Shown: positions 700 to 43,624 of the stretch, one piece after another
How the letters are laid out: every line of letters starts with the position of its first letter
Numbering within the stretch: the stretch's first letter is position 1
DNA from: a virus
Virus record (IMG/VR): IMGVR_UViG_3300044911_003339
Coordinates: 1 to 64,000 of that record
Strand: one strand, 5' to 3'
DNA length: 64,000 bases
The notes under the pieces: model-generated
What the model was told of the DNA's origin: nothing
The model's database searches: none
What the model saw: the letters and a program-made list of their open reading frames with translations, nothing else
Position numbers and translations under genes: made by a program

Positions 700-957
700 A
701 TGAAGGGCTGGAGCATCAACATCCACAGGCCAGACGACACGCGCGAGGTCGAGCGCGAGCAGCCCCCCGTGCTCGTGCTCGACGGCGGCGAGATCGTGTT
801 CGAGGTGTGGTTCTGGCACGCGCGCAGCGCTCGCTGGTTCGTGATGACGTGGCAGGACGACCCGAGCTTCGCAGCGCGAGGCATCGTCGCCTTCCGGCCC
901 ACGGACGTACCGTCGGCGCTTCGTGAACGCGTGGCCGCTCTCAGGAGCGCGGCGTAG
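700..957 (+). CDS. Hypothetical protein, 85 aa
   Basis: I do not recognise this protein. It is mainly beta-strand-like with several Trp residues in the middle (FEVWFWHARSARWFVMTW) and has no signal peptide or membrane span. It is the first gene after the terminator and the TAATCGGG motif, and its stop overlaps the GTG start of the DNA polymerase by one base (taGTG). That suggests translational coupling and possibly a replication-related role. Confidence 0.7.
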   Translation: MKGWSINIHRPDDTREVEREQPPVLVLDGGEIVFEVWFWHARSARWFVMTWQDDPSFAARGIVAFRPTDVPSALRERVAALRSAA

Positions 958-3185
958 TGGCCGAGCAAATGATCTTCGGAGGTGCGGACTTCGATCCGCA
1001 CCCGTGGCGCGACTCCGAGGAGATCCGCCTTCGTTCAGGCAGAGTGATTACGCTGCGCATGGTGCTCGTCCAGGACGAGAGCGCGCTGCGTGCGATGGAG
1101 ACCATCGCGTCCGTGCTTCCGTGGATCGCCTACGACTCGGAGACCAGCGGGCTCTTCCCGTGGCTCGGAGCGCGAATCTGCGGTCACGCGCTGGCCGGAT
1201 GGATCGACGCGAGGACGATGATCGCGTGGTACGTGCCCGTGCGTCACGTGGGGGCGATCAACTCGCAAGAGCGCCAGCTTGATCCGGCTGTCGTTGCTCC
1301 GGTGATCGATCGGATTCTGCGAAGCCCCGGACGCTGCGCGCTGCACCACGCGAAGTTCGACTGGTCCCAGCTTCGCGCCGATGGCGTCTCGTGGTCGAGC
1401 ATGCTCGTGCATGAGCGGGGTGGAATCGACTGCCGCGACTTCGACGACATCTCGCTCATGGCGTGCATCGCCGACGAGAACGAGCGCAGCTTCGCGCTGA
1501 AGACGCTGGGTCAGAAGTACATCACCGATCACGCTGCTGACGAGCAACACGTGGTCGTGGACTGGATGAAGGCCGACGCGAAATCGCTCGGCATGAAGTA
1601 CAAGCAGCGTGGCCGATCGGCGAAGGCCGACGAGGGAACGCTCGACGAAGCAGACGAGTCCGAAGAGGTCACCTACCTTCAGCGCTACGGGCACTCGCGC
1701 GTACCGCTGAAGCTGGAGGGGCGCTACGCGTGCCACGACGTGTTCCTCACGCTCGCGCTTCAGGAGCACTACCAATGGATTCGCTCTCGGTACGGACGCG
1801 TCTACGATCGCGAGCGCGCCATCGAGTGCGAGCTACACGAAATGGAGTGGAACGGGCTGCTCGCGGTGCCCGAGGAGATCCACAAGACGCACGACCTCAT
1901 GAAGCGCGAGGTCGCGCACTGGATCACGCGTGTGCGCTCGCTGATCGGAATCGACGATTGGAGCGCGACCGACGAGGAGATGCGCAAGCTCTTCTATGAG
2001 ACGTGGGGCTGTGAGGTCCCGAAGGAGAGCGAGGGCGGCAAGAAGAGCGTGGACAAGGAGACGCGCGCGGTGCTCGCGAGGAAGCACCCCGAGCGCGCGC
2101 CCGTGCTCATCGCGATCGATCGTCTCGCGAAGGCGCGCAAGCTGCGCTCGACCTACGCGAGCGGATTCCTGCGCTACGTCACGCCGTCGAATCGCATTCA
2201 CCCGACCTACAACCAACTGGAGGGGCGAGACGAGGGAGGATTCCCAGTCACCGGCCGCCTCTCGTCGTCGGACCCGAACATCCAGAACGTCGCGAAGAAG
2301 CCCTTCCACACGTTCGAGTGCGGCTGCAAGGCGTGCGTCGAGGAGTTCGGCAACGCGCCCGGTCCGAAGAAGACGATCAGCATCCGCCGCTACTTCGCGG
2401 TGCCGAAGGGATTCGTCCGCGCGTACATCGACTACTCGCAGATCGAGCTTCGCATCCTCGCGTGGTACTCCCAGGACCCGAAGCTCCTGGAGTGCTACGC
2501 GCAGAATCTCGACGTGCACGCGATGGTCGCCGACAACGTGACCGACGGCGATCGCGACATCGCGAAGCAGGTCAACTTCGGCAACTCGTATGGCATGACC
2601 GCGATCGGCCTCGCGCGCCGCGTCGTGTGGACCGACCCCGTGACGGGGAAGAAGAAGCGCTACTACGACGACCCCGAAGAGGCGATTCGTCGCGCCGAGA
2701 AGATCCTGGAGGCGTACTTCCAGTGGCTCACCGGAATCCCGATCTTCCGCGCGAACATGTCGATGGGCATGCGGAAGAACGGCTGCATGTTCGAGAACCC
2801 CTTCGGTCGTCCGCGGCGCATCCCCGAGATCGCGTGGAGCGGCGGAGCGAGGAATCGCGCCGAGCGGCAGATGATGTCGAGCATCATCTCCGGGACCGCG
2901 GCCGACTTGATGAAGGAGGGCCTCCTTCGCGTCGCTCGCTACCTCCGGCAGACGGGCGCGGGCATCCTTCGGCAGTCGATCCACGACGAGCTTGTGATCG
3001 ACCTCGTGATGAGGCCGGGCTGGGCGCAGCACCTCCGCAAGCTGCGTGACCTCATGATCGATTTCCCCATGTTCCCCCGCGGCGGAGTCCCCGTGCTCGC
3101 TTCAGCGGCGATCACGACGACGACGTGGGAGGAAAAGCGCGAGATCGAGCTTCTGGACGACGGTTCGTTCAAGCTCGCCGCGTAA
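957..3185 (+). CDS. polA: DNA polymerase I (family A) with 3'-5' exonuclease domain
   Basis: At 742 aa this is a phage-type family A polymerase without a 5'-3' exonuclease domain. The proofreading exonuclease has its first acidic pair in YDSETSG (D60, E62) and the YxxxD motif III in RYACHD. The polymerase domain shows motif A in IDYSQIELR (D492), the finger helix motif B in KQVNFGNSYG, and motif C in QSIHDELV (H676-E678). A small Cys cluster (CGCKAC) lies just before motif A. The GTG start overlaps the upstream stop; an ATG twelve bases later is the alternative. This is the replicative polymerase of the phage; no helicase or primase gene is seen nearby. Confidence 0.97.
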   Translation: MAEQMIFGGADFDPHPWRDSEEIRLRSGRVITLRMVLVQDESALRAMETIASVLPWIAYDSETSGLFPWLGARICGHALAGWIDARTMIAWYVPVRHVGAINSQERQLDPAVVAPVIDRILRSPGRCALHHAKFDWSQLRADGVSWSSMLVHERGGIDCRDFDDISLMACIADENERSFALKTLGQKYITDHAADEQHVVVDWMKADAKSLGMKYKQRGRSAKADEGTLDEADESEEVTYLQRYGHSRVPLKLEGRYACHDVFLTLALQEHYQWIRSRYGRVYDRERAIECELHEMEWNGLLAVPEEIHKTHDLMKREVAHWITRVRSLIGIDDWSATDEEMRKLFYETWGCEVPKESEGGKKSVDKETRAVLARKHPERAPVLIAIDRLAKARKLRSTYASGFLRYVTPSNRIHPTYNQLEGRDEGGFPVTGRLSSSDPNIQNVAKKPFHTFECGCKACVEEFGNAPGPKKTISIRRYFAVPKGFVRAYIDYSQIELRILAWYSQDPKLLECYAQNLDVHAMVADNVTDGDRDIAKQVNFGNSYGMTAIGLARRVVWTDPVTGKKKRYYDDPEEAIRRAEKILEAYFQWLTGIPIFRANMSMGMRKNGCMFENPFGRPRRIPEIAWSGGARNRAERQMMSSIISGTAADLMKEGLLRVARYLRQTGAGILRQSIHDELVIDLVMRPGWAQHLRKLRDLMIDFPMFPRGGVPVLASAAITTTTWEEKREIELLDDGSFKLAA

Positions 3186-3865: not shown

Positions 3866-5470
3866 ATGATTCCCGCAGGATGGCTTCCGAACCCGAACGC
3901 GCCCGGTTGGTTCTACAACCCGGCGAACCCCTCCCAGCAGATGCAGGGACCTCCGCCCGCCCCGACGGGCTACGCGCCGCAGCCCGGAGCCGTCGCGCCC
4001 GGCACGTACCAGCCTCCCGCTGTGGACCTCGCGAGCCTCGCGGGGCTCTACAACGTCCCGACGCAGGAGGCCGCGGAGCGCGAGCGCGAGCGCGCGGAAT
4101 CCGCAGCGTACGGCGGCGGCACGGACGACTACATCTTCATCGACTTCGAAGAGAAGCTGAACAAGGTGGGCGAGGAGACCTCGCTTCTGCTTCGGCTGCT
4201 CCCCGCGCCCGCGATCATCGACCCCGCGACGGGACGCACGAAGGACGCGTGGTGCCCCGTGCTGCGTCATCGCGTCTACGCGAATCTTCTCCCCAACCCG
4301 CCGCAGGGGAAGGAAGTCGTGTGGATCGACTGCTTCGAGAACGAGGGCGGCCCGAAGGACTGCCCGCTCGACGCGCTGCTCGCAGAGGCGTCGGCGTCGA
4401 GCAACGAGGAGGCGCAGAAGTTCTGCTCGACGATGAAGCCTCGTCAGCGAATCTACTACCAGGCGCTCAACCTGAACGACATCGCGAGCCACTGGGTCCA
4501 GGAGAAGGACACCGCGGGCAACCCGGTGATCGATCCCCTGACGGGGCAGCCGAAGTGGAAGATGATTCCCGGCATCGTCGCCGTCGGCCCGACCGCACAC
4601 ACCGACGTGCTCGGTCTCTTCCGCCACAAGGGCAACCCCTTCAATCCGCTCGCGGAGGGATTCCCGATCAAGCTCGTCAAGACGAAGACGGGCACGAACC
4701 AGATGGACGTGGAGTACAAGGTCTACGACATGGAGCGCTCCGCGATCTCCGGCCAGGACGCGCACGTGTTCAAGTCGCTGATCGACTTCCACAAGTCGGG
4801 CGTCGTCTTCTTCCGCAAGCGTGAGGAACTGGAGGCGATCGCGGACAAGGTGCGCTCACGCTTCGGGCTGCGTCGCGGAGCCCCCGCGCCGACGGCCCCG
4901 ACCTACCCCGCGCCGACGGGTCACGGCGGTCCTCCGCCCGCCCCCTACACGGCCGCGCGCCCCGAGCCCGCGCTTCCGCCTCCCGCGCCCGCGTCGGCCG
5001 GTCTCCAGCCCGGATGGGAGCCGCATCCCAACTACCCGACGCACGCGTGGAATCGCACCACGAACGCCGTGGTGCCCATCGAGCAGGTGCGCGCCGCGCC
5101 CCCGCCTCCCCCGCCGCAGGCAGCGCCCCCGCCGCCTCCCCCGCAGGCAGCGCCGCCCCCGCCCCCGCAGCAGGCCGCGCTGCCCGCGGGCTACGGACTG
5201 CCGCCCGCCGTGGCTCCTGGGCTGCCCCAGGGCGCTCCTCCCCCGCCTCCGGGGTACGGCGCGCCCCCGCCGCCTCCGGGCCACGCAGCCCCGCCCGCGC
5301 CCCAGGGAGCGCCCCCGCCGCCTCCGGGCCACGGCGCTCCCCCGCCGCCTCCGGGCATGCCGCCCGGTCTCGCACCGAACCTCGCAGCGCCCGCGGGCGG
5401 TGCGGTCATGACGCCCGAGCAGTTGGAGGCGATGCTCGCCTCCGGCCGCATCCCCGGCGTCCCGTTCTGA
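3866..5470 (+). CDS. gp32-like single-stranded DNA-binding protein with long Pro-rich tail
   Basis: This is a 534 aa protein starting at ATG 3866, four bases after the previous stop and preceded by AGGAGA. Residues ~85-330 resemble the core of T4 gp32-type SSBs: an extended beta-rich region with candidate zinc ligands C130, H135, C156 and C166. It would coat ssDNA and work with the polymerase and UvsX encoded beside it. Two short GW-rich modules, GWLPNPNAPGWFYNP near the N-terminus and GWEPHPNYPTHAW near residue 385, flank the core and resemble DUF2510-like motifs. The C-terminal ~140 residues are Pro/Gly/Ala repeats instead of the usual acidic tail. The family call is by pattern and moderately sure. 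Confidence 0.75.
   Translation: MIPAGWLPNPNAPGWFYNPANPSQQMQGPPPAPTGYAPQPGAVAPGTYQPPAVDLASLAGLYNVPTQEAAERERERAESAAYGGGTDDYIFIDFEEKLNKVGEETSLLLRLLPAPAIIDPATGRTKDAWCPVLRHRVYANLLPNPPQGKEVVWIDCFENEGGPKDCPLDALLAEASASSNEEAQKFCSTMKPRQRIYYQALNLNDIASHWVQEKDTAGNPVIDPLTGQPKWKMIPGIVAVGPTAHTDVLGLFRHKGNPFNPLAEGFPIKLVKTKTGTNQMDVEYKVYDMERSAISGQDAHVFKSLIDFHKSGVVFFRKREELEAIADKVRSRFGLRRGAPAPTAPTYPAPTGHGGPPPAPYTAARPEPALPPPAPASAGLQPGWEPHPNYPTHAWNRTTNAVVPIEQVRAAPPPPPPQAAPPPPPPQAAPPPPPQQAALPAGYGLPPAVAPGLPQGAPPPPPGYGAPPPPPGHAAPPAPQGAPPPPPGHGAPPPPPGMPPGLAPNLAAPAGGAVMTPEQLEAMLASGRIPGVPF
5093..5370 (+). repeat. Pro/Gly/Ala-rich coding repeats in SSB tail
   Basis: This is an in-frame array of PPPP blocks separated by Gln-Ala, Gly-Tyr-Gly or Gly-His-Ala, encoded by near-identical GCCCCCGCCGCCTCCGGG units. 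It forms the disordered C-terminal tail of the SSB. It is protein low complexity, not a CRISPR or a regulatory array. Confidence 0.8.
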
Positions 5471-5612: not shown

Positions 5613-5653
5613 ACTTCTCCTCGTTCGTGTGCTGCGCTCGTTCACCGGAGACG

Positions 5654-5695
5654 CCTCGGCCGATGCCAGTGGGCGAGCACAGCACAGGGCCGAGG
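5654..5695 (+). promoter_or_regulatory. Leader hairpin ahead of recombinase gene
   Basis: CCTCGGCC (5654-5661) is complementary to GGCCGAGG (5688-5695). The hairpin ends 8 bases before the GGAGG ribosome site of the recombinase gene, so it could affect its translation. An alternative pairing, GTGCTG near 5628 with CAGCAC near 5680, would compete with it. Confidence 0.35.
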
Positions 5696-5712
5696 AGCCC
5701 GCTGGAGGAATC

Positions 5713-6846
5713 GTGAAGCAACGCAAGCCGCGCAAGGTCGAGGACGAGAAGGCACCGAAGCCTCCGAAGAAGGAGGTCGATCGCAAGAAGTCGTCGGTCG
5801 ATACGAGCGATTACCTGAAGCTGCTCAACGACGTGGACGAGAGCGACTTCCTCACGCTCGCCGATCCTGGAATCGACGCGACCGTCACCGACTTCATCCC
5901 GACCGGCTCGATCGCCATCGACCGCTTGATCGGTGGAGGCTGGCCGGTCGGTCGCATCTCCGAGGTCGCCGCGTGGGAGGCCGTCGGGAAGAGCACGCTG
6001 CTCGATCAGTCGCTCGCGCAGTGCCAGCGCATCGGCGGAATCTGCGGTCTCGTGGACACCGAGAAGGCACGCGACACGAGCTACACGAGCACGCTCGGCG
6101 TGGACCCCTCGCAGGTGCTCTCTCCCGATCTCGGAGACGACATCACGATCGAGGGTGCGTTCAACGCGATCGATCGACTGCTCGACGTGCAAGCGAAGAT
6201 CGCCGCGCAGATGAAGAAGGGCATGCCGCCCCCGCCCATGCTCATCGTGTGGGATTCGGTCGCGGGCTGCCCCACGCGCGCGGAGCGCGATGGTTCGTCC
6301 GATTCCAAGCACGTCATGGCCGCGGCGCGAACGATCAAGATGAACCTGCGTCGCATGACCGCGCGCCTCCCGATCCTCCGCACGGCGCTCGTGTTCTCGA
6401 ATCACTTCTACGAGGCTCCGCAGGCGCTCGCGCACGGCCCCTCGCTGAAGACCTACGGCGGCAGCGGCATCCGCTACTTCTCCTCGCTCCGTCTCTGGCT
6501 CACGCGCATCGGCAACCTCACCGCTGGCGATTCGATCGTCGGTCACATCGTCGAGGCGAAGCTGAAGAAGACGCGAATCCAAAGGCCGCGTCCGCCAGCA
6601 CACACCGGCCTCGTGTACGGCGCGGGCTTCGACAACTCCTACACGCTGTTCGAGTGGGGCAAGACCCACGGCGTCGGCGGCGAACACAAGTGGATCGCGC
6701 AGCGTGGCTCGTGGAGCTACCTCATGATGCCCGACGGAGAGTACAAGGCGTTCCAGTCTGGATTCCGTGGCTTCGGAGAGCACCTCCGAGAGAATCCTGC
6801 TCTCTACGAGCAGATGGCCGCGCAGTATCTCTCGGAGGCAACGTGA
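5713..6846 (+). CDS. uvsX: UvsX/RecA-like strand-exchange recombinase
   Basis: The start is GTG 5713, five bases after GGAGG. The frame is open farther upstream, but that part lies in the structured leader. At 377 aa it is close to T4 UvsX in length. The Walker A is atypical, WEAVGKST (G92-K93-S94), where RecA has GPESSGKTT. Walker B is LIVWDSVAG. The N-terminal ~25 residues are highly basic (Lys-Arg rich). It should form ATP-dependent filaments on ssDNA and catalyse homologous pairing with the gp32-like SSB next door. Its end overlaps the next gene by four bases (GTGA), so the two nuclease/recombinase genes are probably co-translated. Confidence 0.9.
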   Translation: MKQRKPRKVEDEKAPKPPKKEVDRKKSSVDTSDYLKLLNDVDESDFLTLADPGIDATVTDFIPTGSIAIDRLIGGGWPVGRISEVAAWEAVGKSTLLDQSLAQCQRIGGICGLVDTEKARDTSYTSTLGVDPSQVLSPDLGDDITIEGAFNAIDRLLDVQAKIAAQMKKGMPPPPMLIVWDSVAGCPTRAERDGSSDSKHVMAAARTIKMNLRRMTARLPILRTALVFSNHFYEAPQALAHGPSLKTYGGSGIRYFSSLRLWLTRIGNLTAGDSIVGHIVEAKLKKTRIQRPRPPAHTGLVYGAGFDNSYTLFEWGKTHGVGGEHKWIAQRGSWSYLMMPDGEYKAFQSGFRGFGEHLRENPALYEQMAAQYLSEAT

Positions 6847-9842
6847 GCAGGACCCGCAAGCCCCGCGCGCTCTTCGCAGCGCCGGCACCGATCGAAGCAG
6901 CCGCGCCGTTCCGCTTCGTCGCGTTCGGCGATCTCCACGTCAGCGCGAAGACGCTCGACCGAGCGATCGATCTCCTCACGCGTGTCGGCGAGGTCGCCGA
7001 CGAGCACGGCGCGGAGATCGTGTGTCTCGGCGACTTCTGGGATCTCCGCAACGTGCTCCACGTGCGGCACGTCGATGCCGTGCTGAGCGTGATCGAGTCG
7101 TGGAAGGCTACCGCGTGGTTCATCCCCGGTAATCACGATCAGGTCACCATCGACGGCAGCGTGCACGGTGTGCGCATCTTCGGTCCGCTCCCGCGCGTGA
7201 AGGTCGCGACCGACCTCATGCTCGACGAAGCGCGCAAGCTCGCGTTCGTGCCGTGGCGCGAGGCCGAGGGCGAGCAGGAGGCCATCTTCCAGCGCGTGCC
7301 CGACGGCTACACCGTCTTCGCTCACGCGGAGCTTCAGGGCGCGACCGCGAACAACGGCAAGCCCGCAGCGGGCAAGCTCGCGCTGCACAGCGCGGAGCGA
7401 TTCCGCGCGCTCTACATGGGCCACTACCACGCGCGACAGAAGCTCGGCACGCGCTCGTGGTACATCGGGTCGCCGTTCGAGATGGATTTCGGCGAGCGAG
7501 GAGAGCCGCACGGGCTCGCGCTCCTGACGAGCGACACCATCGACCCGGCCTTCCTCGACCTCGACCACTACCCCAAGCACTACGTGATCGAGCCTCCCTT
7601 CGACGGCAGGAATCCACTGCCGCCGATTCGTGAGAGCGACATCGTGGAGTTTCGAGGGCCGCGCGAGATGCTCTCGGGAGGGCTCGTCCAGGGCATCATC
7701 GAGAGGCTGCCCACGAAGGACGTGCGCACGGTGCCGGTCGCCGCGCCCGACAAGGCAGGCCCTCCGCAGTTCGCGCTCACGCTCGCCGACGCGCTGGAGA
7801 AGTACGTCGAGCAGGAATCCGAAGCCGCACAGGACCACGGCGCGGACCTCGCGCTCGTGTCGAAGGAGGATCTCCTTCGTGCGGGCCGTGACCTGCTCGC
7901 CCAGGTCCCCGACGCGCGTCTCATCGCACCGGCCGGCGCTCGCGTGCGGGTGCTCGGCGCGTTCGTGATGGACTTCATGCGCGTCCGCGGCGCGGTGAAT
8001 CTCGGGCTGGAGAACCGAGGCACGACGCTGCTGCGCGGTCGCATGGGAGCGGGCAAGACCTCGCTCGTGGATGCGATCACGTGGTGCATCTACGGCGTGA
8101 CGACTCCGCGCAAGGCAGGCGCGGCAGGCGCGTCTCTGCGCGCCGATGACGTGATCAACGACGAGGCCGAGCAGTGCTGCGTCTCGGTCGCTCTGGAGAT
8201 CGACGGCAAGGCCGCGAAGATTTCGCGCACCAAGCGTCGCGGCAAGACCGCGGTGATCGAGATCGACTACGACGGCGTTCCGCCCGCGGGCATCTCCGAT
8301 CAACAGGCGATCGTTCAGCATCTCGTGGGGCTGCCCTACGATCTCTGGCGCTCGTGCGTCTACCTCGGGCAAGGGGCCGTCGCGAACTTCATCACGGACG
8401 CGGACAAGCGCAGGAAGGAGATGCTCTCGACCGCGTTCTCGCTCGGCGCGTGCGTCGATGCGCAGAAGCTCGTTCGCTCACAACTGAAGACCGTCGTCTT
8501 CCAGTGCGAGCGCCTGCGTCTGGAGATTTCGAGCAACACGCGCGCGCTCTCCGAGGTGCAGGCGTTCGACTACGCGAAGCAGATCGCGGATTTCGAGGCA
8601 CGCCGCGAGGCTGCGAAGCAGGCTGCTCGCGACGAGGGCGACGCGGCGAAGCAGGCCATCGCGCAGTGCGAGGAATCGCTCGGCGCAGAGGCGCAGTGGG
8701 TCGAGGCCCGCGCGCAGTACGACGAGCAACTCGCCAAGCTCATGAAGAGCTACGGCGAGGCGTTCGCAGGTCCGAGCGCTGCGTCGCGAGAGCGGCTCGG
8801 AGGGCTCCGCACTGAACTCGGAATCAACCAGCGCGACCGCGCTCGCGTCGAGACGCAGATCGCACACCTGAAGTCCGAGCGCGCATCCGGCCTCGGCGCG
8901 TGCCCCGCGTGCAAGCGTCCGCTCGACGCCTCGGGGCTGGAGACGCAGATCATCGAGGCGGAGGTGAAGCTGCGGCAGTACGACGTGTCGATCCAGGAGA
9001 TCGAGGCGCGCCTCTCGCAGCTTCTCACCGAGCAAGTCGAGGCCGAGGAAGGCGTCGCCGCTCGCCGCGCTGCGATCGAGGAGGACATCGCGAAGGTGCG
9101 CAAGCACATCGACTCGTGCGCTTCAGCGCAGGTCACCTTCGCGCGTCTTCGCGACAACCGAGCCGCGGCCGAGCATCGCCTGAAGAGCGCCCGCGCGCTC
9201 TGGCAGCACCACGAGAGCGAACTGAATCCGTGGAAGGCGAAGCAGGCCGAGCAGGAGGCTCGCGTGTCCGCGCTCCGCGCTGCGATCGAGCGCGACGACG
9301 CGGAGCTTCGCAGCCTCATGCTCACGCGCTCGACGCTGGAGTTCTGGGAGACGGGATTCGGTCAGAACGGGATTCCCGTGCTCGTGCTTCGGCTCGCGCT
9401 CTTCGACCTGGAGGAGCACGCGAATCGCTTCATCGCTGCGCTCACTGAGGGCTCCATCACGTCGCAGCTTTCGATCGAGGGCGACGACCTCATGGTGCGA
9501 TTCTTCAAGCACGAGAACGGGCAGACGCGCGAGCGCACCTACCTGCAACTCTCGGGTGGCGAGAAGCGCTGCGTCGAGATGGCGTTCTCGCCCTTCGCGC
9601 TCTCGGAGATGATCTTCTCGCGCTGCGGCGTGCGCGTGGGGCTGCTCGTGATCGACGAACTGACGACGCACCTCGGGGCCGAGGAGAAGCCCATCGTGTG
9701 CCGGCTCCTGCGCTCGCTCGACCGCGAGACGGTGCTCGTGATCGACCACGACGAGAGCGTGCGCGGCGCGTTCGATCGCTCCATCCTGTGCAGTCGTGAT
9801 TCCGGTGTGCTCGTGCTGACCGAGGGAGGAGTCGAGGGATGA
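6843..9842 (+). CDS. SbcD(Mre11)-SbcC(Rad50) single-chain fusion nuclease
   Basis: One uninterrupted 999 aa frame carries both halves of the Mre11-Rad50 complex (T4 gp47/gp46), normally two genes. Residues ~20-270 are the Mre11-type metallophosphoesterase, with motifs GDLH, GDFWD, GNHD and GHYHA. After a linker to ~365 comes the Rad50/SbcC ATPase: Walker A GRMGAGKTS (399-407), Q-loop region YLGQGAVANF, coiled-coil arms, zinc hook CPAC (C687, C690), signature LSGGEK (903-908) and Walker B VIDE (D938, E939). It should process DNA ends for recombination-dependent replication. The start is GTG 6843, overlapping the recombinase stop. Confidence 0.95.
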   Translation: MSRTRKPRALFAAPAPIEAAAPFRFVAFGDLHVSAKTLDRAIDLLTRVGEVADEHGAEIVCLGDFWDLRNVLHVRHVDAVLSVIESWKATAWFIPGNHDQVTIDGSVHGVRIFGPLPRVKVATDLMLDEARKLAFVPWREAEGEQEAIFQRVPDGYTVFAHAELQGATANNGKPAAGKLALHSAERFRALYMGHYHARQKLGTRSWYIGSPFEMDFGERGEPHGLALLTSDTIDPAFLDLDHYPKHYVIEPPFDGRNPLPPIRESDIVEFRGPREMLSGGLVQGIIERLPTKDVRTVPVAAPDKAGPPQFALTLADALEKYVEQESEAAQDHGADLALVSKEDLLRAGRDLLAQVPDARLIAPAGARVRVLGAFVMDFMRVRGAVNLGLENRGTTLLRGRMGAGKTSLVDAITWCIYGVTTPRKAGAAGASLRADDVINDEAEQCCVSVALEIDGKAAKISRTKRRGKTAVIEIDYDGVPPAGISDQQAIVQHLVGLPYDLWRSCVYLGQGAVANFITDADKRRKEMLSTAFSLGACVDAQKLVRSQLKTVVFQCERLRLEISSNTRALSEVQAFDYAKQIADFEARREAAKQAARDEGDAAKQAIAQCEESLGAEAQWVEARAQYDEQLAKLMKSYGEAFAGPSAASRERLGGLRTELGINQRDRARVETQIAHLKSERASGLGACPACKRPLDASGLETQIIEAEVKLRQYDVSIQEIEARLSQLLTEQVEAEEGVAARRAAIEEDIAKVRKHIDSCASAQVTFARLRDNRAAAEHRLKSARALWQHHESELNPWKAKQAEQEARVSALRAAIERDDAELRSLMLTRSTLEFWETGFGQNGIPVLVLRLALFDLEEHANRFIAALTEGSITSQLSIEGDDLMVRFFKHENGQTRERTYLQLSGGEKRCVEMAFSPFALSEMIFSRCGVRVGLLVIDELTTHLGAEEKPIVCRLLRSLDRETVLVIDHDESVRGAFDRSILCSRDSGVLVLTEGGVEG

Positions 9843-10351
9843 AGACCGCGAAGTACAAGCCCCGGCTCATGCCGGGCGAGCAGTGGTTCGAGGTCGTGTC
9901 GTGCTTCGATCCCGCGCGCATCGAGCACTTCCCCTACGGGCCCAACGGCGAGCGCGCGTTCGTGCTCGGCGCTCTCGACAAGCTGCTCGTGGTCGAGGTG
10001 CCACGCACGATGGACGGCGAGTCGATCGGAGCGCTCGGGCGGCACCTGTCGGAATCGGGTAAGGAAGCACTCATCGTGAGCGAAGGCATCCGGTTCCTCC
10101 GGCTGCGCGCGCTCTCTGTGAGCGAGGAACGAGACATCGAGCGGCAGATCAAGGAGGCCGAAGATGCGCAGCGTGCGAGAGAGGGAGAGCGGCTGGACGC
10201 CCCCGAAGTTGCTGGGGGCGGATCCGGGGTTGGCGAACTTCGGCATGGCGGTTCTGGAGGTGACTCCGGGCCGCGCGCCGATGCTGCTGCACCTCTCGAC
10301 GACGCGAACGTCGGGCGAGCCGAAGAAGAAGCGGACGATCCATCTCGCTGA
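9839..10351 (+). CDS. Hypothetical protein, 170 aa, tail overlaps resolvase gene
   Basis: ATG 9839 overlaps the fusion-nuclease stop (ATGA). The first ~110 residues look like a small alpha/beta domain. From residue ~110 on, the frame overlaps the resolvase gene for 188 bases and becomes a Gly/Asp/Ala-rich low-complexity tail, probably shaped by the other frame. I do not recognise the domain. Its position suggests a partner of the recombination proteins. Confidence 0.65.
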   Translation: MKTAKYKPRLMPGEQWFEVVSCFDPARIEHFPYGPNGERAFVLGALDKLLVVEVPRTMDGESIGALGRHLSESGKEALIVSEGIRFLRLRALSVSEERDIERQIKEAEDAQRAREGERLDAPEVAGGGSGVGELRHGGSGGDSGPRADAAAPLDDANVGRAEEEADDPSR

Positions 10352-10772
10352 CGAGAACTTCATCCGCACGCGTGCCATCGGGCGCGCGCTCGACCACGTG
10401 CTCGTCCAGTACAACCCGGCCGCCATCGCCGCGGAATCTTTCGCGTGGGTCCGAGACGCCTCGTCTGCGGCGAAGACCGCGATGACGTGGGGCGTGCTCG
10501 CGCTCGCGTGCGAGCGTGCATCGCTGCCCCTCGCGTCGCTCGGTTCTCAGGACGTGAAGAAGGCCCTGTGCGGGAAGCGAGACGCGTCGAAGGAATCTGT
10601 CGAGCAGGCCGCGCGCAAGCGTCTCGCTCGTGGGAGCGAGCACGTGATCGCGGCGTTCGAGCAGACGACTTCCGCGACGCATCGAGAGCATGCATGGGAT
10701 GCCCTCGCGACTGCTCTCGTGGCACTCGAACAGAGCGAGGTGATCCGTGCTGTCGTCCGCGCTGCCCCCTGA
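10164..10772 (+). CDS. ruvC: RuvC-like Holliday junction resolvase
   Basis: A 202 aa protein of the RNase H/RuvC fold. The first catalytic Asp is in LLGADPGLANFG near residue 20, the Glu in AAIAAESFAW, and the last acidic position in the HAWDALATA helix. The start ATG follows AAGGAGG with 8-base spacing, which supports it despite the 188-base overlap with the preceding frame. It would cut branched intermediates made by the nearby UvsX and Mre11-Rad50 proteins before packaging. Confidence 0.85.
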   Translation: MRSVRERESGWTPPKLLGADPGLANFGMAVLEVTPGRAPMLLHLSTTRTSGEPKKKRTIHLADENFIRTRAIGRALDHVLVQYNPAAIAAESFAWVRDASSAAKTAMTWGVLALACERASLPLASLGSQDVKKALCGKRDASKESVEQAARKRLARGSEHVIAAFEQTTSATHREHAWDALATALVALEQSEVIRAVVRAAP

Positions 10773-24008: not shown

Positions 24009-24016
24009 GGGTGAGC

Positions 24017-25903
24017 ATGAAGATCCAGATCACCAAGCAGTTGTCGCAAGAACTGAGTCGTCTCAGCAAGAAGGGCGCGGACTACGTGCCCGAGCACGGC
24101 GAGGCGGTTCGCATTCTGTTGCAGACGTTCAACTTCGAAGTGGACGAATACCGCTGGAGTCGTGACCGCGAGATCGACATCACGCGCACGCCGCACGACA
24201 AGCTCCAAGCGCTGCTCGCGAGCTTCCGCAAGCTGAAGGGAATCCGCGGCTACAAGTCCGCGTCGCTCGACATCGAGACGTGGCTCGACTCCCGCGACAA
24301 GACCGGCACGAAGAAGGCCCGCAACGTGAAGCACTACTGGCTTCTCGCTCGCGACTTCTTCGCGCACCAGAAGCACCAGCGGCTCTACGAGCAGGACGAG
24401 AGCGGAGCGCAGCGCGCGTACCATCTCGCCGCGCTCGATTACGAGCCGCAACGCACCTACAGCTACGGCACCTCGCCTGCTCGCGTCATCTTCACGCTCG
24501 CCTACCGCGAGTTCGGATTCGTCCGCACCACGAAGCGCTCGCACACGCTGGAGGAGTGCACCGTGGTCGAGGGTCTGCGCAAGGTCGGCCTCTTCCCGGA
24601 GAACGCATCGAACCGCGAGGAGTACCTGCTCGAATACGCGCGATGGCGCTCGCTCGCGGAGCGCATCGGCCTTCAGTGCTGGGCGCGCGGGCAGGCGAGC
24701 GACGACCTCGACGGGAATCCGAAGCGCACGGGATGGTGGTGGTCGCGCAACGTCGTGACGCTCGACCCGCAGGGCGAGGCCGGCAAGGTCGTGATCGACG
24801 TGTTCGAGGAAGAGAGCGACGTGAGGCAGGAGGATCGGTGGTACCGCACCGACAGCCGAAGCTCTTCGGACAAGATCGACAACGCGTACTGGGAGAAGCT
24901 CCGCGTCGCGAAGGACGAGGATGCGGACGAGGACGTGAAGGAAGAGCACGTGCACGAGGACGACGAGGACGAATCGTCTTCTCCTTCCGCTGAAGAGGGC
25001 GGCGAGGTCGGCGAGGGCCCGCTGGAGATTCCCGTCTACCCGATGCTCGCGGTGTTCGACATGAAGCGACACCTGCGACTGCGCGTGCACGTGTCGCAGT
25101 TGGAGGATTACGCCTTCGACCCGCGACTCGGCGAGCGTCTCATCCTGCCGCCCGACGTGCGCGACCTCGTGACCGTGCTCCTCTCGCACAAGGCGCAGTT
25201 CGCGGACGTGATCAACGGCAAGAGCGGCGGCGTCTGCATCCTGTGCGCGGGCCCGCCCGGCACGGGCAAGACGCTGACGGCGGAGGTCTACTCCGAGATC
25301 ATGCGGCGTCCGCTCTACGCGGTGCAGACGGCGCAACTCGGGACCTCGGCGGAGGAACTGGAGAACGAGCTTCGGCGCGTGTTCGCGCGAGCGCAGCGCT
25401 GGGGCGCGATTCTCCTGCTCGACGAAGCCGACGTGTACGTGCGCGCTCGCGGTGACGACCTCGACCAGAACGCGATCGTGGGCGTGTTCCTCCGTGTGCT
25501 GGAGTACTACCAGGGAATCATGTTCATGACGACGAACCGCGTGGACATGGTGGACGACGCGATCGCGAGCCGGTGCATCGCGCGCATCGACTACAAGATT
25601 CCGCACCCCAACGACCAGAAGCGGATCTGGCGCGTGCTCGCCGACTCGTCGGGCATCGAGCTTCCCGACGCGACCATCGAGGAGATCGTCGCCGCGTGGT
25701 CGGACCTCTCCGGCCGCGACATCAAGAACCTGCTGAAGCTCTCGCGCATGGTGACGAGCGCGAAGAGCGAGCCGATCACGAAGGCCACGATCGAGTTCGT
25801 GAAGCGCTTCAAGCCGACGGGCGCGCAGGAGGTCTACGACACGCGCGAGGGTGGCTCTCTCACGCTGCGTCAGAAGGGCGTGCGCTCTGTGAGGAACGCA
25901 TGA
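24017..25903 (+). CDS. AAA+ family ATPase, 628 aa
   Basis: The AAA+ module lies in residues ~390-560: Walker A GPPGTGKT (412-419), Walker B ILLLDEAD (D469-E470), sensor region MFMTTNRVD, and a likely Arg-finger segment near IASRCIARI. The N-terminal ~300 residues are an unknown domain. An acidic Ser/Asp/Glu linker (~300-345) separates the two. Such phage ATPases may remodel DNA or protein complexes; a replication loader or host-takeover role cannot be told apart here. ATG 24017 is preferred over GTG 24011. Confidence 0.9.
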   Translation: MKIQITKQLSQELSRLSKKGADYVPEHGEAVRILLQTFNFEVDEYRWSRDREIDITRTPHDKLQALLASFRKLKGIRGYKSASLDIETWLDSRDKTGTKKARNVKHYWLLARDFFAHQKHQRLYEQDESGAQRAYHLAALDYEPQRTYSYGTSPARVIFTLAYREFGFVRTTKRSHTLEECTVVEGLRKVGLFPENASNREEYLLEYARWRSLAERIGLQCWARGQASDDLDGNPKRTGWWWSRNVVTLDPQGEAGKVVIDVFEEESDVRQEDRWYRTDSRSSSDKIDNAYWEKLRVAKDEDADEDVKEEHVHEDDEDESSSPSAEEGGEVGEGPLEIPVYPMLAVFDMKRHLRLRVHVSQLEDYAFDPRLGERLILPPDVRDLVTVLLSHKAQFADVINGKSGGVCILCAGPPGTGKTLTAEVYSEIMRRPLYAVQTAQLGTSAEELENELRRVFARAQRWGAILLLDEADVYVRARGDDLDQNAIVGVFLRVLEYYQGIMFMTTNRVDMVDDAIASRCIARIDYKIPHPNDQKRIWRVLADSSGIELPDATIEEIVAAWSDLSGRDIKNLLKLSRMVTSAKSEPITKATIEFVKRFKPTGAQEVYDTREGGSLTLRQKGVRSVRNA

Positions 25904-39552: not shown

Positions 39553-40262
39553 TGTCCAGCAAGGCCGAAGCCGTCGTCGTCGCGAAGGCGCTCGCGCTCA
39601 TGGGCAAGCGAGGTCGCCGAGGTCCCGTCGAGGACGAGGTGGCTCCGCGTCGCGCGAGCACGAAGCTCCATCGAGGCCGGAAGATGCCGGCCGAGCCTGC
39701 GTCTCGCTGGCCTCACAGCGCGAAGCGGCCGAAGGCCGTCGTCCAGCCCGACCTCACAGAGCCCGGTGTGCAAGGTCGCCCGCCGAAGTCGAGCGAGACG
39801 CCCGTCTACGGCAAGGGCTCGACCATCGGACCCGGACCAGGCGGCGGAGGGATTCTCGGCAAGCGGAAGGGGAAGCGCCCCTACGCACGCTCGCCGAAGT
39901 ACACGACGCTCGACATGATGGCGGCCGATCTCCACGGCAAGGTCGTCGGCCCGATGGGGTCGAAGGAGAACTCAGGCACCAGCTACGGGCCCGGCCCTGG
40001 ATGGAACTCGAACCCGATGCCGGACTTCGGCGACATGTTCCCCGGCCGAGACCCGAAGGGGTCGGAACGCGAGGAGACGAAGGCGCAAGCGAATCGCATG
40101 GTCTCGAATCGCAAGCGCAACGAGGGTACGATGGGGTTTCACGGAACCCCTCCCAAGCCGACGCTTCGGGCTGAAGCGAAGGAGCAGTTCTTCATCACCG
40201 CGACGCGCGAGAGCGAGAACAAGCCTCGCCTCTACGCGCGCGTCGGCTACAAGAGGTCGTGA
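39552..40262 (+). CDS. Basic Gly/Pro-rich protein, 236 aa
   Basis: ATG 39552 overlaps the preceding stop (tgATG). It is low-complexity, Lys/Arg/Gly/Pro-rich and probably mostly disordered. A short folded end (QFFITATRESENKPRLYARV) may be beta structure. It could be an internal DNA-binding virion protein; there is no family match. Confidence 0.6.
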   Translation: MSSKAEAVVVAKALALMGKRGRRGPVEDEVAPRRASTKLHRGRKMPAEPASRWPHSAKRPKAVVQPDLTEPGVQGRPPKSSETPVYGKGSTIGPGPGGGGILGKRKGKRPYARSPKYTTLDMMAADLHGKVVGPMGSKENSGTSYGPGPGWNSNPMPDFGDMFPGRDPKGSEREETKAQANRMVSNRKRNEGTMGFHGTPPKPTLRAEAKEQFFITATRESENKPRLYARVGYKRS

Positions 40263-43200
40263 TGCCGCTCGGTCACAAGTACATCTCGCGCAAGCGCAAC
40301 GCTTCTGGCGGTTACGATTACGTCTACCCGCATCCCACGACGGGTGAACGCGTTCGCATCCGCACTTCCCTGCGTCTCGACGGCGAGCATCGCTCGGTCA
40401 CGGCCGAGAATCCCGAAGACCGCACGATGTCGGCGACAGCCTGGTCGCGTCGCGGGGCAGACGGCAAGACGCTGACCGAGGCTCACTCTGCGCTCGACGA
40501 GGCCGAAGCTCCGATTCATCGCGCCGCGGTCGCTGACACGATGAACCGGAAGAAGACGATCACGCGCCTCTCGCACAAGACCTCCAGCTACGGCGAGAAG
40601 CACGGCATCGGCCCTGACGACAAGGGAGGCTCTGCGGTTCGTGACGCCGCACGCAAGGCGGCGTGGGCTGCTTCCGAGCCGCCCACTGGAGGCCACACCC
40701 GCGAGACGCACGAGAAGGCCGCGAAGGCGCACGAACACGCCGCGAAGCTCGAACGCGAGGCCGGGCGACGTGATGGCTACGTGAGGCACGCTTCGATGGC
40801 CGAGCAGCATCGCAACGCGATGGAGCGGCTGGGCTCCTCAGAATCCGATTCACCAGTCTATCCGTTCTGGGTCCGCAACCAGAGGACCGGGGTCTCCGAG
40901 GGATTCAAGACGCGTGAGCAGGCCGACACGCACCTGCGGCACTACGTGAAGAATCCCGAGGACCACATCATCGAGCAGGTCGGCGCGAAGGGTCCGAAGG
41001 TCAACGTGGACCACCTGCTCTCCGGCAACATGGGAATCCCGCGCATCGAGATGCCGCAGATCCGTTCCTTCAAGCTGCCCGAGTTCCTCTCCAAGCTGGA
41101 GAAGAAGGGCATCAAGGCGACGAAGGGTGAGCGCGCAGTCGGCTCGCTGAAGCCGACGCAGAACGAGATCCACGGCGAGCGCGTCCAGGAGATCATCGAA
41201 GACCCGAAGGAGCGAGAGAATCTCGCGAAGCAGATCATCATCTCGAACGACGGCTTCATCCTCGATGGGCACCATCGCTGGGCAGCGCTCACGACGATCG
41301 ACCCGAAGGCGAAGATCAAGACGCTCCATGTGGACATGCCGATGCGCTCTCTGCTGAAGGAGGCGCACGCGTTCGAGGGTGTGGAGTACCAGAAGAGCGA
41401 ACAGGAGACGGACATGGGCGGCGACCTCATCGACAACCTCGAACTGCTCGCGAAGGGCGACACGCTCGTCGGCTTCTACTCGCCCGGTGTCGCTCGCGGC
41501 GGCAAGTACTACCGCCGAGTCCCGACCGGGAATCCGAAGCACCCGTGGAGGTACTTCTACACGGAGGCGGAGTACAAGGACGCGATGAAGGACGCTTCGC
41601 ACGTCGGCGGGACCGAGGCGAAGCGGGCGCGCGTGAAGAAGCGCGTCTTCGTGAGCGAGAAGGAGGCGCGCGAGAAGTACGGCCTTCCTGGTACGACGAA
41701 GGAGCTTCACGCGCCGGACGGGAACTACCCGCCCGAGCGGAAGAAGCTCCACGAGGAGATCATCTCGCACTTCCTCGACGGCAAGGGGAAGCCCCCCGCA
41801 GGCAAGAAGCCCGTCGCGCTGCTCACCGTCGGAGGTCCGGCCGCGGGCAAGTCCACGCTGCTGAAGCACCTCGGCGAGAACCTCGACGATTACGTGATGA
41901 TCGCCGCCGACGACGTGAAGGAGAAGCTCCCCGAGTTCCAGCGCGCGCTCAACCTCGGGAATCGCAAGGTGACGCAGCCCGACGGCTCGGTCACGAGCGT
42001 GCCAGTCACGGCGAGCCACTCGGGCTGGATGGCGCACGACGAGAGCACGGACATCTCCGACGAACTGGAGAAGCGCGTCATCGCCTCGGGCAAGTCGGCC
42101 ATCTTCGACGGCACGGGCAAGAACGTCCCGAAGATGCTCGCGAAGATCGCCGCGCTGAAGAAGGCCGGCTACCACGTGCGCGTGGTGATGCCGCACGTGC
42201 CGATGGGCGAAGCGATCAAGCGGCTGCACTCGCGCTCGGAGGACACGGGCCGCACGCTGCCCGTCGATGCGGCGATCGACATGCACCGGAAGATTCCGGG
42301 CAACTTCGAAGCCATCGCTCGCGCTGCCGACGACTTCTCGCTCTTCAAGTCGGGCAACCCGCCGAAGCCGATCTGGACGGGCGGCGCGGGTCAGGAGGAC
42401 AAGATCCACGACCACGAGGAGATGTCGAAGTTCAACCTCGCGCGAGGACTGCACCAGGACATCGGCGCAGAGGAGAAGGCGGGCGGAATCTACAAGAAGA
42501 GCGAGGACCCCGAAGCGCTCGACGCGACCGGCCCGAAGCAGCCGCACCACACCATGAACGAGTTCATGGAGATCCTCTCGCGCTGGAACGGCTCCATCGA
42601 CAACCACGAGGACGGCCGGAGCAAGGTGCCGCACGACGGCGACATCGAGGACGGCCTCGCGGACGTGATTCCCGACGCGGAGGACGAGACCGTCAAGCAC
42701 CTGAAGCGTCGTGCTCCGAAGGCCAAGAAGGCGAAGGGCGCTCGCTTCATGGAGCGAGGCGAGGTCGAGAAGAGCGGCGACCTCATCGACTCGCTGGAAG
42801 CTCTCGTGAAGGGCGGCGAGGCTGCGGGGCACAAGCTGGTGCACTCGGAGAATCCGCGTGCGCACGGAGGAGACGTGACGAAGAGCGACCGCTCGCGTCG
42901 CCTGGAGGAGAAGATCATGAGCGACGAGATGCAGAAGGGCCTCTACCAGTTCCAAGGTCTCGGCTCGGGCGAGGTCCCGGACCAGTACCTCTACGATTAC
43001 CTCTGCGCGTTCGTCGAAGAGGCGTACGAGCACGAGCGGCAGGAGAAGGTGCACCAGAACACGCTCGTGCCGCCGTCGAGCACGGGGGCGAGCATCGAGG
43101 ACGTGTGGGCGACCGCCGTCTTCAACGAACTCGTCAGCATGATGGGCTCGAACGCGAACCTGAAGCGCGCGGCGGTGAAGTACAACGTCACGAAGGACGT

Positions 43201-43624
43201 GATCGCGCACATCCTCCGCAGCAAGGGCCTCGTGCGCCCCTTCTCCGACGCCGGCACGTGGACGAGCGACTACGACTCGATGCGCGCGATGGACGGCGAG
43301 GGCGTCACGCGCCCGCTCGTGCTCTCCGAGTCGGCCCGCGCGCAGTACCGCGACATCGTGCCGGATCCGTTCGGGCACAACGTCGGAGTCGCGCTCGCGA
43401 AGGCCGAGCCCGCGCCGACCGCGCCGCTCTTCATCGACGATTCCCACGACCCGCACGGGAATCTCGCGAAGGCCGAGCGTGCTCGCCTCGCACTCGTGGA
43501 CTACCGGCAGAACGCCGAGTGGCGGCCGAACGTCTCGCCGACGTGTATGATCCACGGCAGCGCGGATCTCACGAAGTCGATGAATCTCTCGAACCCGCAC
43601 GCTCGCTGCACCTGCCCGCGCTGA
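40262..43624 (+). CDS. Virion polyprotein: ParB/Srx-like domain plus zeta-toxin-like kinase, 1120 aa
   Basis: It starts at ATG 40262 with the motif GHKYISRKRNASGGYDYVYP. Residues ~290-380 contain a ParB/sulfiredoxin-like nucleotide site (IISNDGFILDGHHRWAAL, D335). A second copy of the motif, GGKYYRRVPTGN to YFYTE, lies near 412. Residues ~515-700 form a zeta-toxin/P-loop kinase: Walker A GGPAAGKST (524-532), IAADDVKEKLP and IFDGTGKN segments. Two short repeats, GDLIDNLELLAKGD (~386) and GDLIDSLEALVKGG (~838), bracket the kinase part. Likely packaged, perhaps processed by the prohead protease, and delivered to the host. Confidence 0.75.
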   Translation: MPLGHKYISRKRNASGGYDYVYPHPTTGERVRIRTSLRLDGEHRSVTAENPEDRTMSATAWSRRGADGKTLTEAHSALDEAEAPIHRAAVADTMNRKKTITRLSHKTSSYGEKHGIGPDDKGGSAVRDAARKAAWAASEPPTGGHTRETHEKAAKAHEHAAKLEREAGRRDGYVRHASMAEQHRNAMERLGSSESDSPVYPFWVRNQRTGVSEGFKTREQADTHLRHYVKNPEDHIIEQVGAKGPKVNVDHLLSGNMGIPRIEMPQIRSFKLPEFLSKLEKKGIKATKGERAVGSLKPTQNEIHGERVQEIIEDPKERENLAKQIIISNDGFILDGHHRWAALTTIDPKAKIKTLHVDMPMRSLLKEAHAFEGVEYQKSEQETDMGGDLIDNLELLAKGDTLVGFYSPGVARGGKYYRRVPTGNPKHPWRYFYTEAEYKDAMKDASHVGGTEAKRARVKKRVFVSEKEAREKYGLPGTTKELHAPDGNYPPERKKLHEEIISHFLDGKGKPPAGKKPVALLTVGGPAAGKSTLLKHLGENLDDYVMIAADDVKEKLPEFQRALNLGNRKVTQPDGSVTSVPVTASHSGWMAHDESTDISDELEKRVIASGKSAIFDGTGKNVPKMLAKIAALKKAGYHVRVVMPHVPMGEAIKRLHSRSEDTGRTLPVDAAIDMHRKIPGNFEAIARAADDFSLFKSGNPPKPIWTGGAGQEDKIHDHEEMSKFNLARGLHQDIGAEEKAGGIYKKSEDPEALDATGPKQPHHTMNEFMEILSRWNGSIDNHEDGRSKVPHDGDIEDGLADVIPDAEDETVKHLKRRAPKAKKAKGARFMERGEVEKSGDLIDSLEALVKGGEAAGHKLVHSENPRAHGGDVTKSDRSRRLEEKIMSDEMQKGLYQFQGLGSGEVPDQYLYDYLCAFVEEAYEHERQEKVHQNTLVPPSSTGASIEDVWATAVFNELVSMMGSNANLKRAAVKYNVTKDVIAHILRSKGLVRPFSDAGTWTSDYDSMRAMDGEGVTRPLVLSESARAQYRDIVPDPFGHNVGVALAKAEPAPTAPLFIDDSHDPHGNLAKAERARLALVDYRQNAEWRPNVSPTCMIHGSADLTKSMNLSNPHARCTCPR

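Follow-up and report, generated by a model that had tools for sequence, protein, structure and literature searches.

A single-chain Mre11–Rad50 (SbcD–SbcC) protein encoded in a recombination and replication operon of a phage

Does a phage encode the Mre11/SbcD nuclease and the Rad50/SbcC ATPase as one polypeptide, and what would such a fusion change? An earlier note on this DNA proposed the fusion against a background in which SbcD/SbcC and T4 gp47/gp46 are separate subunits, a picture that is incomplete because viral fusions were published in 2011 (PMC3175470); the gene described here is a fresh example of a kind recorded in viruses since then. The window, the whole 64-kb stretch of DNA that we analysed, belongs to a virus record of 105,161 bases, and its terminase, portal and major capsid genes support its identity as a phage. 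A single unbroken frame of 999 codons and a stop begins at a GTG preceded by a GGAGG-CAAC ribosome site. Its start overlaps the stop of the upstream UvsX gene (GTGA) and its 3′ end overlaps the downstream gene (ATGA), by four bases in each case, and the 999-aa product has no second match anywhere in the record. Its translation reads as an entire Mre11/SbcD nuclease and then an entire Rad50/SbcC ATPase, the latter with a coiled coil and CxxC hook. Frame, motifs, profiles and relatives bear out the proposed fusion, and we consider, with a probability of roughly 0.86, that the product is a single-chain phage Mre11–Rad50 of the SbcCD and T4 gp47–gp46 type, an end-processing nuclease that would feed recombination-dependent replication.

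Table 1. Features of the fusion gene and its operon in the window. L087 and L088 are two related IMG/VR contigs.
Feature	Position	Strand	Basis
Family A DNA polymerase	957..3185	+	Pfam and PHROG; kept in L087 and L088
SSB-like protein ending in a proline-rich tail (probable start, from relatives)	3866..5470	+	Weak phrog_1192 match
UvsX/RecA-like recombinase, directly upstream of the fusion, 4-base overlap	5629..6846	+	phrog_97 E=5e-52; Pfam RecA E=2e-32
Fused SbcD(Mre11)–SbcC(Rad50) gene, 999 aa	6843..9842	+	Open frame; PHROG and Pfam match both halves; fusion also in L087 and L088
Mre11 phosphoesterase (nuclease) domain, residues 22–242, metal ligands complete	6906..7568	+	phrog_100 E=6e-28; phage SbcD alignment; pLDDT mostly >90
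Capping-domain-like region, residues 243–309	7569..7769	+	Position relative to phage SbcD; predicted strands and helices
Predicted Rad50-binding helix-loop-helix, helices 314–332 and 341–353	7782..7901	+	AlphaFold2 secondary structure; aligns with C-terminal helices of separate phage SbcD
Linker, residues 358–367	7914..7943	+	10 residues in alignment; pLDDT <50 at 360–363
Rad50 N-lobe with Walker A, residues 368–545	7944..8477	+	AAA_23 E=1e-16
Antiparallel coiled coil, residues 546–835, with CPAC hook 687–690 (8901–8912)	8478..9347	+	Helices flank hook
Rad50 C-lobe: LSGGEK signature, Walker B VIDE, H-loop VIDHD	9348..9839	+	Motif alignment
Small conserved gene, directly downstream of the fusion	9839..10351	+	Shared, among loci compared, with L087 and L088 alone
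RuvC-like Holliday junction resolvase (start uncertain; frame as listed shares bases with preceding gene)	10164..10772	+	phrog_159 E=4e-23; Pfam RuvC

The motifs named in the earlier note, from GDLH to VIDE, are all found. In the Mre11 half, the five phosphoesterase motifs are GDLH (D30, H32), GDFWD (D64), GNHD (N97, H98), FAHAE (H161) and GHYHA (H194, H196), and each of these residues is invariant in an alignment with four Herelleviridae SbcD proteins. This half matches phrog_100 (SbcD) over residues 19–273, and its profile matches solved SbcD and Mre11 chains. The Rad50 half matches phrog_77 (SbcC) over residues 378–994 and carries the full bipartite ABC ATPase set of Walker A (GRMGAGKT; K405, T406), Q-loop, signature (LSGGEK; S904–G906), Walker B (VIDE; D938, E939) and H-loop (VIDHD; H969), with the CPAC hook (C687, C690) at the apex between two long predicted helical arms. 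Pfam Metallophos in the first half and AAA_23 in the second each score above the Pfam cut-off. Among the window protein, L087 and L088, the nuclease domain (51–54% identity) and the two ATPase lobes (47–54%) are the best kept parts; the capping-domain-like region (27–34%) and the coil (22–36%) are weakly conserved. The CxxC is present in all three, and the arms plus hook span 289–291 residues in each. In L088 (5929-8955), Walker A reads APVRTGKT, with the first glycine lost and the remaining ATPase intact.

The AlphaFold2 model of the 999-aa protein (mean pLDDT 87) runs from a phosphoesterase fold through a helix-loop-helix and a low-confidence turn at 360–363 to an ABC head from residue 367, with antiparallel arms around a hook at about 687. 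It is a model of one chain with a pTM of 0.56, and placement of the head relative to the nuclease, dimerisation and docking of the helices lie beyond its reach. The input alignment comprised 43 sequences, without rows from annotated phage and plasmid records, and in some rows of separate SbcD MAFFT put the C-terminal tail in the wrong place, so that it is chiefly the fused rows that inform the model over residues 300–367. The best PDB fold matches are Rad50 chains of Mre11–Rad50–Nbs1, SbcCD also being among the matches. In BFVD the model has many full-length matches to viral proteins of about 920–1420 residues, with alignments longer than 1000 columns.

A search of the linker region for a Rad50-binding helix, which the earlier note had suggested, gives a predicted helix-loop-helix at 314–353, just ahead of the 10-residue linker; by analogy with separate Mre11 proteins it would dock on the Rad50 coiled coil. 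Judged by secondary structure and position, the helix-loop-helix is retained, and fusion thus appears to supplement the usual contact between the Mre11 C-terminal helix and Rad50, not to substitute for it. The usual Mre11–Rad50 complex is M2R2 and already 1:1, so the stoichiometry said to be forced by fusion is no departure; what fusion changes is the linkage of nuclease to ATPase in cis. Natural single-chain enzymes of this kind are useful tools: with nuclease and ATPase equal in amount and in cis, mixing single-mutant chains can ask which head drives which active site.

Could the frame instead reflect an assembly or sequencing error that joined two genes, with a stop or frameshift lost from the record? 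Separate genes are the rule in our sample, where 85 of the 94 distinct phage SbcD/SbcC pairs are unfused and some of these lie in frame with a single stop codon between them; the nine fusions are the window, L087, L088 and a second phage clade of six (L039, L042, L048, L060, L065, L067). Against an error, L087 and L088 are independent contigs that encode the full-length fusion without a stop, at 41% and 39% identity to the window protein, and in the alignment share a linker of 10 residues with it. GC3 stays between 0.82 and 0.94 in every 50-codon block of the gene, the junction (residues 251–400) included, and inspection of the sequence near the junction found no internal start codon with a ribosome site that would yield a free Rad50. 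This continuity of codon-position GC and the two intact relatives exclude, as far as sequence allows, a stop or frameshift near 7650-7940, which the earlier note had named as the result that would split the gene. An error is thus very improbable, and the independent relatives largely refute it.

If the fusion is genuine at the level of the gene, the protein might still be cleaved in the cell at a flexible linker, the working enzyme being an ordinary two-subunit complex. The low model confidence at 360–363 is compatible with this, and the retained helix-loop-helix could keep the halves together after cleavage, yet the linker length is constant in three proteins that are just ~40% identical, and in the clade-2 fusions the helices run almost directly into Rad50. 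We therefore regard cleavage as unlikely. Another reading takes the gene for a defence-type SMC ATPase with a nuclease, like LmuB of Lamassu, instead of a replication and recombination enzyme. The PADLOC LmuB profile does match the Rad50 half (E=4e-22) and Lamassu chains occur among the fold matches to the model, but the match to phage SbcC phrog_77 is much stronger (E=2e-56), the ATPase is joined to a complete Mre11 half, and the gene is located, in a replication operon kept in two other phages, after UvsX and before RuvC. Its neighbours in the window are replication and recombination genes rather than the LmuA and LmuC of a defence operon, and we consider a Lamassu-like role highly improbable.

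The search for other fused SbcD–SbcC architectures that the earlier note proposed yielded eight further loci in IMG/VR and the annotated Rhizobium phage RHph_TM30. L087 and L088 are the nearest relatives found, through alignment-based scans of IMG/VR; scans of IMG/VR for close relatives, run with the fused protein or with UvsX alone, returned nothing, and a genome scan gave only one relative, unfused, in a Bacilli MAG. Next-nearest to the window clade come rows in which the pair is unfused, and several of these (L089, L090, L093) have a related polymerase, UvsX or RuvC gene. In L093, SbcD and SbcC share a frame and are separated by a TAG and one further codon, GCC, before the ATG, and several other pairs are similar, so the loss of a single stop could make a fusion. 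The window gene probably arose in this way, by stop-codon loss between adjacent genes of an operon.

A quick tree of the sampled phages needs two changes for the fused state; for these sampled phages a tree that holds all fusions together is equal or better (p-AU 0.57) and a single origin is not rejected. Tentatively, and at slightly less than even odds, we suggest that SbcD and SbcC have fused repeatedly in phages, the window operon being one independent event, and that each lineage has kept a set linker length because cis pairing of nuclease and ATPase is selected. If so, such pairing might, for example, make assembly faster or keep Rad50 from occurring free. LMTA-57 (1009 aa), which heads the structural matches, hinted that Listeria phages are generally fused, an idea that we rejected because the related LMTA-94 has two genes; for LMTA-57 itself, an artefact of sequencing or annotation may explain the fused entry. 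Adjoining SbcD and SbcC genes also occur on Acinetobacter baumannii plasmid p5768 (L168, 4482-7538), which carries RecA-type recombinase and ribonucleotide reductase genes, a phage-plasmid-like content.

The order polA, one small gene, SSB-like, UvsX, fusion, one small gene, RuvC is common to all three members of the window clade, although L088 breaks off inside polA, and by its gene assignments this is a recombination and replication block. The product of the small gene next to the fusion has no family match, and homologues of the SSB-like protein occur, among the loci compared, in L087 and L088 only. That protein (window 3866-5470; L087 3174-4655; L088 3114-4781) has GWxPHP…W/YN repeats and a long proline-rich tail, and the window copy has a PPGY reminiscent of WW-domain/PPxY pairs. 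Elsewhere in the window, a 1121-aa frame beside the portal gene (40259-43624) has an internal zeta-toxin/kinase-like domain (PF06414, residues 509–690, E=5e-20) and also matches a minor-head-protein PHROG, and a 630-aa AAA ATPase (24011-25903) has an ATP-dependent protease PHROG as its best match (9e-74).

The gene content of the phage suggests that it replicates by recombination, and resection of ends by gp46/47 prepares for the loading of UvsX in T4 (PMC3016280). Given that parallel and the recombination and replication operon, the fusion most likely acts like T4 gp46/47, in ATP-gated end processing that would feed UvsX. We infer stoichiometry, activity and pathway as follows. Two chains would come together at their Mre11 and Rad50 heads to form the usual M2R2 complex. 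On binding ATP, the Rad50 heads would close on DNA, and hydrolysis would let the Mre11 sites cut; the hook would join the coiled coils or keep DNA ends together. The resulting 3′ single strands could then be coated by the SSB-like protein and UvsX from the same operon and start recombination-dependent replication, the intermediates being resolved by the RuvC-like enzyme.

How does this protein compare with known systems? Yoshida, Claverie and Ogata described thirteen Mre11/Rad50 fusions in 2011, among them those of Mimivirus (R555), Bacillus phage 0305phi8-36 and bacterial plasmids; their survey also covers fusions from eukaryotes and marine phage metagenomes, and they argued that such proteins are common in aquatic viruses (PMC3175470). 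Like the window protein, R555, the 0305phi8-36 protein (A7KV18) and the Clostridium kluyveri and Deferribacter plasmid SbcDC proteins place nuclease and then ATPase in one chain; most of the published fusions keep the helix-loop-helix and a short linker, and their viral or mobile setting is shared. The window gene has one frame with Mre11 first and Rad50 second, and its linker of 10 residues falls within the 9–12 proposed to suit the known complex. Compared by published description, the Bacillus phage fusion is without the capping/helix-loop-helix region and one of its P-loop NTPase segments was not observed, whereas in the window protein a matching capping-like and helix-loop-helix region is predicted and the ATPase segments are present; R555, compared in the same way, has changed metal ligands, whereas those of the window protein are complete. 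With the window clade, a family seen until now chiefly in database surveys gains members with full motif sets. PHROG profiles 77 and 100 are ~970–990 positions long, and in phrog_77 SbcC starts at about position 296, a hint that fused proteins were among the sequences from which these profiles were built.

Closest to the window protein, the L087 and L088 proteins share its fusion and operon, L088 differing in Walker A. The 'recombination endonuclease protein' of Rhizobium phage RHph_TM30 (QIG71347.1, 959 aa), a single annotated CDS in a cultured phage, likewise matches Metallophos and SMC_N/AAA_23 as well as phrog_100 and phrog_77, but is only ~18% identical over the ATPase half, has GQHD in place of GNHD and lies among other gene neighbours. 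T4 gp47/gp46 and Herelleviridae SbcD/SbcC have the same domains with a short coiled coil, the T4 pair within a UvsX-type recombination system, and differ in being encoded by separate genes, often with small genes between them.
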